From positions 1-13,753 of the forward strand of contig NYZA01000095.1 in NCBI GenBank assembly GCA_002686955.1: 13,753 nt of DNA. Direction: 5' to 3'. Within the stretch, counting starts at the first letter, position 1. Every line of letters starts with the position of its first letter. This document shows positions 5,665 to 13,753 of this stretch, piece by piece. The position numbers and the translations under genes were made by a program. Source of the stretch: Gemmatimonadota bacterium. GTDB taxonomy: Bacteria; GCA-2686955. The notes beneath the pieces were generated by a model. The model did no database searches. It saw only the letters and a program-made list of their open reading frames with translations, and was not told where the DNA came from.

Positions 5665-8600
5665 ATGAACCCCCTTTCCAACTTCCACCCTCTCATCCAA
5701 CGGTGGTTCCGGCGAGACATCGGAGAGCCCACCGATGCGCAGACGAAAGTCTGGCCCCGCATCGCCGCCGGCGAGCATGTGCTCCTCACCGCCCCCACCG
5801 GTAGCGGCAAGACACTCTCCGCCTTTTTGTGGGCGATCGATCGCCTTGTAAGTGGCGGCTGGAGCACCGGGCGAACGCGTGTGCTCTACGTCTCTCCACT
5901 CAAGGCGCTCAACAACGACATCCGCAGGAATCTGCTCGGCCCTCTCGATTCGCTACGCACCATATTCGCCGACTCGGCGACTCCCTTCCCCTCGATCGAG
6001 GTCCTCACGCGAAGCGGTGACACTCCGCCCGAGGATCGCCGCCGTATGTTGCGACATCCACCTGAGATCCTCATCACCACACCGGAGAGTCTGAATCTCA
6101 TCCTCAGCTCGCAGGCGGGTGGTGTGCTACTGACGGGAATCGAGACGGTCATTCTCGACGAAATCCATGCCCTGCTCGGTTCGAAGAGGGGAACACATCT
6201 CATTACCGGCGTCGAACGCATCGTGCGCCTCTCGGGCGAGTTCCAGCGCGTGGCTCTCTCCGCCACTGTTCGTCCCCTCGATAGAGTCGCCGAATTCGTG
6301 GGGGGATACGAGCGGGATGGGGGAGGATACCGTCGCAGGCCGGTCTCCGTAGTGCGCTCCGCCGACTCCAAGGCATATCCGGTCGAGATTCGTTCTCTCG
6401 ATTCCACGGAATCCGATAATAATCAAGAGACACTTTGGGAAGCGCTGGCTCGCGATCTCAAGGCCGTGATCTCGAACAACCGTTCGACGCTGCTCTTCGT
6501 CAGGAGTCGAAACATCTGCGAAAAAGTGACGCGGTTGATCAACGGCGACGAACCCGAGCCGATCGTGTACGCGCACCACGGGGCTCTTTCGAGAGAAATC
6601 CGTACCGAGGTCGAGCGGCGCCTGAAACGTGGAGAGCTCCGCGGCATCGTCGCGACCAGCTCGTTGGAGCTCGGGATCGATATCGGTGCGCTCGATGAGG
6701 TAGTGCTGATCCAATCGCCCGAGAGCTTGTCTTCGGCGATCCAGCGGGTTGGTCGGGCGGGCCACGGCGTCGGTGAGATCAGTCGCGCGATTCTCTATCC
6801 ATCGAGCGCCCATGAGATGATCGAGGTCGCCGTGCTCGCGGAGGGGATCCTGGAACACGATATCGAGGAATCCTCTCCGATCAAGGGGCCCCTGGATGTC
6901 CTGGCTCAGATCATCGTTTCGATGGTCACCGTCGAGAAGTGGGATATCGACGCCCTTCATGCGCATCTCCGCACGAGTGAGCCATACCACCATCTGCGAA
7001 GGGATGAGCTCGACATCGTCCTGAAGATGTTGGCGGGACGTTACGCCGACAGCCGAATTCGGGACCTCAGAGCGAGAATAGCGATCGACAAGCTCGAAAA
7101 CACCGCCGTTGCTCGCAAGGGAGCCAAACTTGCGCTCTATATGTCCGGGGGGACGATTCCCGATCGCGGCTATTTTCGGCTGCGACACCGCGAAACCAAC
7201 GCGTTGATCGGCGAGCTAGACGAAGAGTACGTTTGGGAAGCATCGATCGGGCAATCCATGACCTTGGGCACACAGAGTTGGCGTATCGAGCAGATCACAC
7301 AAAGCGACGTTTACGTGCTCCCCGGAAGAGCCGGCGCCCGCGATGTTCCCTTCTGGAAGGCGGAGGGGCGCAACCGCGACTTCCATCTCTCGACGAGGAT
7401 CGGTGAGTTCCTGGAGAACGCCAACCGGATCGAGGACAAGATCTGTCTCAAAGCCTATCTCTTGGCGCGGGCTCCCATCGATGAAATCGGCGCCGAGCGG
7501 CTCGCGGACCATCTCTCACGACAAAGAAGTCACACGCGATGCGATCTTCCCCACCGCCATCACATTGTTTTCGAACATGTGGACGCCGCTCCGGGCACGA
7601 CGGCGGGGGGCAATCAGCTCATCATCCATACATTCTGGGGGGGGCGGGTCAATAGGCCCTTTGCGCTGGCTCTCGAGGCTGCGTGGGAGAGCCGTTTCGG
7701 TGCGCCGATCGAGACTTTCGCGGCGAACGACTGCATCTGTCTCGTACTTCCGCACGAGGTATCGGCCGAAGAGATCCTCTCGCTCGTTCCCTCCACTTCG
7801 CTCGAAGGGCTTCTCCGCAAGCGCCTCGAAGCCTCCGGCTTTTTTGGGTCCCGCTTTCGAGAGTGCGCCGGCCGGGCTCTTCTGCTAACGCGAAATCGCA
7901 TGAACGAGCGGATGCCTCTCTGGGTCCGCAGGCTCCGCTCGCAACAACTCCTCGATGCGGTCATGCGCTACGAAGACTTCCCGATACTGCTCGAGGCCTG
8001 GCGAACTTGCCTCCAAGATGAGCTCGATCCCGAGGCCTGCGCCGGTGTTCTCGGGGAACTGGAGTCGGCGGAGATCGCCTGGTCTGAAACGCGATCGTCC
8101 ACGCCGAGCCCATTCGGCCGATCGGTCGCTTGGCGCCAGGTGAGCGAGTACATGTATCGAGACGACACCCCCAAGGAGGGGAAGAGATCGAGAATCAGCA
8201 CCGATCTCCTTCGAGATGTGGTTTTCGATTCCGGCCTTCGCCCCGCGATCTCCCCCGAGCTCGTAGAGCGTTTCAACCTGCGGCGCCGGAGGCTCGAGCC
8301 CGGCTACCTTCCGTCAGATTCCACGGAGCTGATCGAATGGGTGAAGGAGAGAGGAGCGATTCCGCTGCCTGAATGGAACCGCCTTCTGGGAGAGATCGAA
8401 AGCTGCGCGCCGTCGAAGGAGATCGTCGATCCGATCAGTGACAGACTCGTGCGCGTGACGCCGAGTGGAGCGGCGCACCCCCTGATCCTCGCTCTCGAAG
8501 ATGCACCACGGATCGCGGGCACCTTGTGGAACGCCGCGACGGTGGAGGACTACGAGCGAACGGGGCCGGCTCCGCTTCCCCCTCCCCAATCGGAGCTCGA

Positions 8601-13108: not shown

Positions 13109-13633
13109 TTAGTTACTCAAAGCATGTCGCTGGAAGAACTCCCATGCCTCGTCCACATACACAATATCTTGGTTCTTCCATCCGTTCAGCAGGCGCCACA
13201 ACCAGCTGAATTGTGTCGGCCCCGGCCACGCGTGCCCGCCCCCATCGGCATCGTCGTACGCGATTTCGGTGCCTTCGAGCCCACCGGAGAAGAGGTAGCG
13301 GGTAACGGTGCATCGATCACCTGGAACAGCATCGGCAAAGGGCTCGATCGAGGGAGTGGGATCGACCTGCAAGAAGCCGGCCCAGAGTCGAACGGTGTCG
13401 TGCGCCGATAGTACCGTCCCCCGATTGAAAGCGAGTTCGCCCCCCTCGTACGGCACGATCGGATCGTCGGTTCCCGCGGCGAGCATGATCGAGATCGGGT
13501 TCTCCGGCTCCCCACAGTCGTTCACCGCCGCGGCGTAACCGGCGGCGCACGCCACCGCGGCGATCCGCTGCGATCCCGACGGCGGCCGCAGCCTGTCGGT
13601 GGTCGAGATCGGCGGCCAGGACGCCAAGTTCAT
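13109..13633 (-). pseudogene. PHB-depolymerase/LpqC-type esterase, N-terminus missing at the breakpoint
   Basis: The C-terminal half of an alpha/beta-hydrolase of the polyhydroxybutyrate depolymerase (esterase PHB, LpqC) family is clear. RIAAVACAAGY begins at residue 23. The acid loop GTDDPIVPY is at 54-62 (Asp57 likely catalytic), and the histidine loop DGGGHAWPG lies near 130-138 (His134). In this family a G-L-S-N-G-G-M-type nucleophile motif should lie a few tens of residues before RIAAVA, along with the oxyanion region. Here the upstream bases instead encode an activator protein on the opposite strand. The first ~22 residues (MNLASWPPISTTDRLRPPSG) are therefore antisense of that other gene, not esterase. 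As it stands the product would be inactive. Substrates of the family are polyesters, feruloyl esters or related esters. The stop lies 29 bases before the HEAT-SpoU start, suggesting one operon. Confidence 0.82.
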
Positions 13634-13753
13634 CCAGATCGTCGATGGTCAGATCGTCGAGAGTGACATGAACAAGGCCTGCAGCGCCGGGACGGGTTCG
13701 TTTCTCGAGGAACAGGCGGTGTTCCACGGCGTGCACGATATCGAACAGTTCAC
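13539..13753 (+). CDS. Internal fragment of a 2-hydroxyacyl-CoA dehydratase activator (BadF/BadG/BcrA/BcrD ATPase family)
   Basis: After TAA 13536-13538 the plus frame is open to the window end and reads PAAHATAAIRCDPDGGRSLS, then VVEIGGQDAKFIQIVDGQIV, then ESDMNKACSAGTGSFLEEQA, then VFHGVHDIEQF. EIGGQDAKFI is the phosphate-binding motif of the ASKHA ATPase fold. MNKACSAGTGSFLEEQA is the hallmark segment of acyl-CoA dehydratase/reductase activases; its cysteine corresponds to a ligand of the [4Fe-4S] cluster shared across the dimer. These proteins pump electrons into dehydratases or benzoyl-CoA reductase-like enzymes using ATP. The MNKACSAGTGSFLEEQA wording resembles the long, multi-domain activase-like proteins. 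There is no start codon or N-terminal domain: the homology begins abruptly where the minus-strand esterase ends, and the gene runs off the window. Confidence 0.85.

Follow-up and report, generated by a model that had tools for sequence, protein, structure and literature searches.

A probable chimeric contig end joins half of an esterase gene to an unrelated activase fragment in a Gemmatimonadota draft genome

One described way in which metagenome assembly fails is to build chimeric contigs where sequences share k-mers (PMC7299287). The locus described here brings together pieces from two known protein families, the type-1 short-chain-length PHA depolymerase-like esterases (NF050058/PF10503) and the large two-ATPase acyl-CoA dehydratase activases (PF01869/TIGR00241). 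Activases of the two-ATPase type are present in many phyla, and an intact one in the related locus L051 has 1452 residues. A shared k-mer of about 18 to 23 bases can connect unrelated genomes in a small-k de Bruijn graph, and template switching in library amplification would leave the same mark. The window, meaning the whole stretch of DNA that was analyzed, is the complete contig C95 (13,753 nucleotides) of a Gemmatimonadota draft genome of 4.28 Mb that is 84.5% complete and divided among 270 contigs, a degree of fragmentation and completeness that points to a metagenome bin. The lineage is sparsely sampled: of 78 genomes drawn as relatives, one belongs to the same family, and the rest have only the domain in common.

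A preliminary description of this contig claimed that two unrelated truncated genes meet head to head near its right end. Both homologies proved real by profile and BLASTP matches, and the join, 209 bp from the contig end, is present in the deposited sequence. To the left, on the minus strand, positions 13109 to 13573 encode the C-terminal half of a type-1 PHB-depolymerase-like esterase, assigned to the genome's own sequence. This half matches NCBIfam NF050058 at positions 166 to 276 of 276 (E = 3.7e-7), and its BLASTP alignments to the proteins of related loci L022, L023, and L030 begin at their residues 171, 190, and 188. The esterase halves reached E-values of 5e-25 by BLASTP and 5e-23 in an own-genome search with the L022 protein; a comparison of the C-terminal half with solved structures gave no match. 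The S of SQRIAAVA (13573), or a residue at most two away, is where alignments to intact relatives start; the preliminary description called the esterase recognizable from RIAAVA leftward. The family's conserved (S)DRIAA(V/I)A..AG motif lies exactly where the gene breaks.

To the right, the plus-strand frame at 13539 to 13753 matches PF01869 (E = 2.9e-7) and TIGR00241 (E = 6.5e-11) and carries the VEIGGQDAKFIQI and NKACSAGTGSFLEEQA motifs of the activases. The homologous part, 13545 to 13753, encodes about 69 residues of the second ATPase domain, corresponding approximately to residues 415 to 483 of the L051 protein. This tail, probably foreign, stops on its right side only because the contig does. 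The preliminary description was right to see the middle of an activator here, but not a short activator lacking its N-terminal half: the parent type is a two-ATPase protein of approximately 1450 residues. When 84,980 species genomes were scanned and 80 loci kept, the tail was up to 87 to 91% identical to its relatives; among the loci kept, the closest were mostly deltaproteobacterial metagenome-assembled genomes, with some labeled Acidobacteria, Schekmanbacteria, and others. In one relative, the CSMAG_234 activase (JAUVBB010000052.1; L105, 4962 to 5001), the gene is apparently frameshifted at AHATAAIR compared with the intact L051 copy. With pieces of only 69 and about 154 residues, one or both homologies might be spurious, in which case there would be no junction at all. 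The chance of this is negligible, and the matches refute it: several activases are 87% identical to the tail across 69 residues, and the esterase halves have the E-values given above.

Next, we located the edges of the two homologies. Coming from the left, esterase similarity ends at 13567 to 13573. On the activase side the edge is sharp and lies at 13545, the A of AHATAAIR; all but a few of the 80 kept loci begin to match exactly at this point (query residue 3). Directly before this point related loci read NEIV (71 of 76), NEII (4 of 76), or NEIL (1 of 76); all three are missing from the window, where a stop codon in frame and unrelated residues take their place. DNA identity to 17 activase relatives is likewise 24 to 44% across the 45 bases upstream of the edge, whereas it is 71 to 84% to the right. 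The join thus has a different incomplete gene on either side of a sharp edge. By the residues before the edge and the drop in DNA identity, plus-strand homology begins at 13545 rather than at about 13542 as first proposed, and the overlap said to suit both proteins, which does exist, is corrected from 13542 to 13567 to 13545 to 13567. This stretch of 23 nucleotides reads AHATAAI(R) on the plus strand and RIAAVAC on the minus strand and would be the microhomology at a false join.

How two unrelated genes could fit the same bases is suggested by the activase family itself. Activase DNA for AHATAAIR gives RIAAVA when its complementary strand is read in a shifted register. Antisense at this motif, RIAA occurs in 18 of 76 relatives and xxAAVA in most of them. 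Antisense frames of activase loci hold only about 10 RIAAVA-like motifs in 88,542 residue positions. Given this rarity, the in-register fit with the A-G that follows in the esterase is not due to chance. Because RIAAVA lies antisense at the activase motif and the esterase motif lies at the break, the source genes most likely shared about 18 to 23 bases at the join; the dual fit over 13545 to 13567 is seen directly, and exact identity of the parental sequences is what we infer from it.

The esterase half on C95 was described as lacking its nucleophile-serine region, and this is so; we found the missing N-terminal half, with its GMSNG motif, at the right end of another contig, C65 (6719 to 7150), by searching the genome with the L022 protein. 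In that search the intact relative maps with residues 16 to 161 to C65:6725-7153 and with residues 170 to 321 to C95:13121-13573. BLASTP with the separate pieces agrees (L022 residues 24 to 161 and 171 to 322). Only about 8 to 11 residues are absent between the halves, so the two contigs stop inside the same gene, about 24 to 33 nucleotides apart. On C65 (7214 bp), the last esterase-like residues are GMSNGSM, and the remaining 64 bp of the contig are not esterase. The complementarity of the two protein halves, rather than any bridging sequence, suggests that C65 and C95 are neighbors in the genome. A truncated esterase on C162 was rejected as the partner of the C95 half because its similarity ends approximately 45 residues too early and inside the contig. 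That N-terminal part (MAAALPQNRQ...HWNDGREGG, about 14705 to 15322; L155, 1426 to 2043) covers relative residues 39 to 117 and loses similarity in midgene within a 25-kb contig; gene decay, a frameshift, or a further misjoin inside the contig may be the cause.

C65 and C95 carry different unrelated tails beyond the esterase, of 64 bp and 186 to 209 bp, respectively. The 64-bp tail (C65 7151 to 7214; L011, 1810 to 1873) has a plausible coding frame, VERFDEAPFKNAIRRCEQDGVVFESM, and had no match in Pfam or NCBIfam or in 20 of the genomes carrying activase relatives. An HslU-like assignment was rejected, as it rested on 60% identity over only 15 residues (E = 0.04) to a 579-residue frame with AAA-ATPase motifs in another genome. 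GC3 is 0.729 in both esterase halves, 0.870 in the activase tail, and 0.476 in the C65 tail, although in such short pieces this is weak evidence. Two tails that start within about 30 nucleotides of each other in one gene and yet differ are also what the two ends of a single insert would look like, and activases of this type are found in many phyla. A real foreign insert, acquired horizontally for example, would then interrupt the esterase, with C65 and C95 ending shortly inside its two ends. We consider this quite unlikely, because one boundary of the insert would have to fall within the activase gene, neither join shows any mobile-element sequence, C65 and C95 end only 64 and 209 bp beyond the joins, the assembly contains no further piece of the activase, and neither tail matches another contig.

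We then asked what else of the activase the genome holds. With the 1452-residue L051 protein as the query, the genome yielded the C95 tail and, beyond it, just distant ATPase-domain paralogues at 25 to 36% identity. Nothing of residues 597 to 1452 was matched, and neither contig tail has a second copy in the same genome. Close to the end of C210 lies a BcrAD/BadFG-type ATPase (7633 to 8105; L007, 1501 to 1973) that contains an in-frame TAG and changes frame, possibly as a pseudogene or through poor sequence. The sole same-family genome contains just a 283-residue activase relative (43%); in a comparison of synteny, its aldolase locus (72% identical) has neither an esterase nor any C95 gene within the 4.2 kb examined. 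In a genome that is 84.5% complete, failure to find the remaining activase does not prove that the piece is foreign. Still, another organism in the sample is its most likely source, with horizontal transfer as a possible alternative.

The microhomology of up to 23 nucleotides would also suit an inversion or deletion in the chromosome that joined the esterase to an activase of the same genome, as the preliminary description had allowed. A simple inversion with breakpoints in both genes predicts a reciprocal product, with the activase N-terminal part beside the esterase N-terminal half; C65 has a different sequence there. Neither a reciprocal junction nor the remaining N- and C-terminal parts of the activase were found in the genome (84.5% complete), which favors misassembly and leaves such a rearrangement very unlikely. 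Even taken broadly, as foreign activase-carrying DNA that interrupts the esterase by a real insertion or rearrangement in a little-sampled lineage, a biological origin appears unlikely. Of the two origins first offered for the shared stretch, misassembly through microhomology is thus favored over microhomology-mediated rearrangement: the esterase N-terminal half directly abuts at the end of C65, the two contigs bear different tails, and no reciprocal half of the activase turned up in the assembly.

Taken together, these results indicate that the contig very probably has a chimeric right end, made by the assembler or in the library, and not a biological breakpoint. The organism's esterase gene, presumably intact in the cell, would cross the point at which the assembly broke. 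From RIAAVA onward, the C95 side would have run into an unrelated activase gene through the 18 to 23 or so identical bases, and the other half, on C65, into a second unrelated sequence. Either a shared k-mer in assembly or a chimeric template in library preparation may have made the join.

The value of this result is one of caution only. The final 209 bases are best trimmed from the contig, the esterase ought to count as a single split gene and not as a pseudogene, and the activase piece is no basis for claiming a dehydratase pathway in this organism. The case is also an example of how two conserved protein motifs on opposite strands can provide the k-mer for a false join.

With respect to known systems, both esterase halves belong to the PHA depolymerase-like family, with the GMSNG nucleophile on C65 and the GGGHAWPG histidine on C95; unlike an intact member, this one is split across two contigs with a few residues absent between them. 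The activase piece has the motifs of the two-ATPase type but, unlike a full protein, lacks a start and a C terminus. There is no new system at the join. As in chimeric contigs from metagenome assembly, unrelated gene fragments meet, close to a contig end, in a short sequence that both share, and the true continuation of one gene lies at the end of another contig; judged here from the assembled sequence, the locus does not differ from them in kind.
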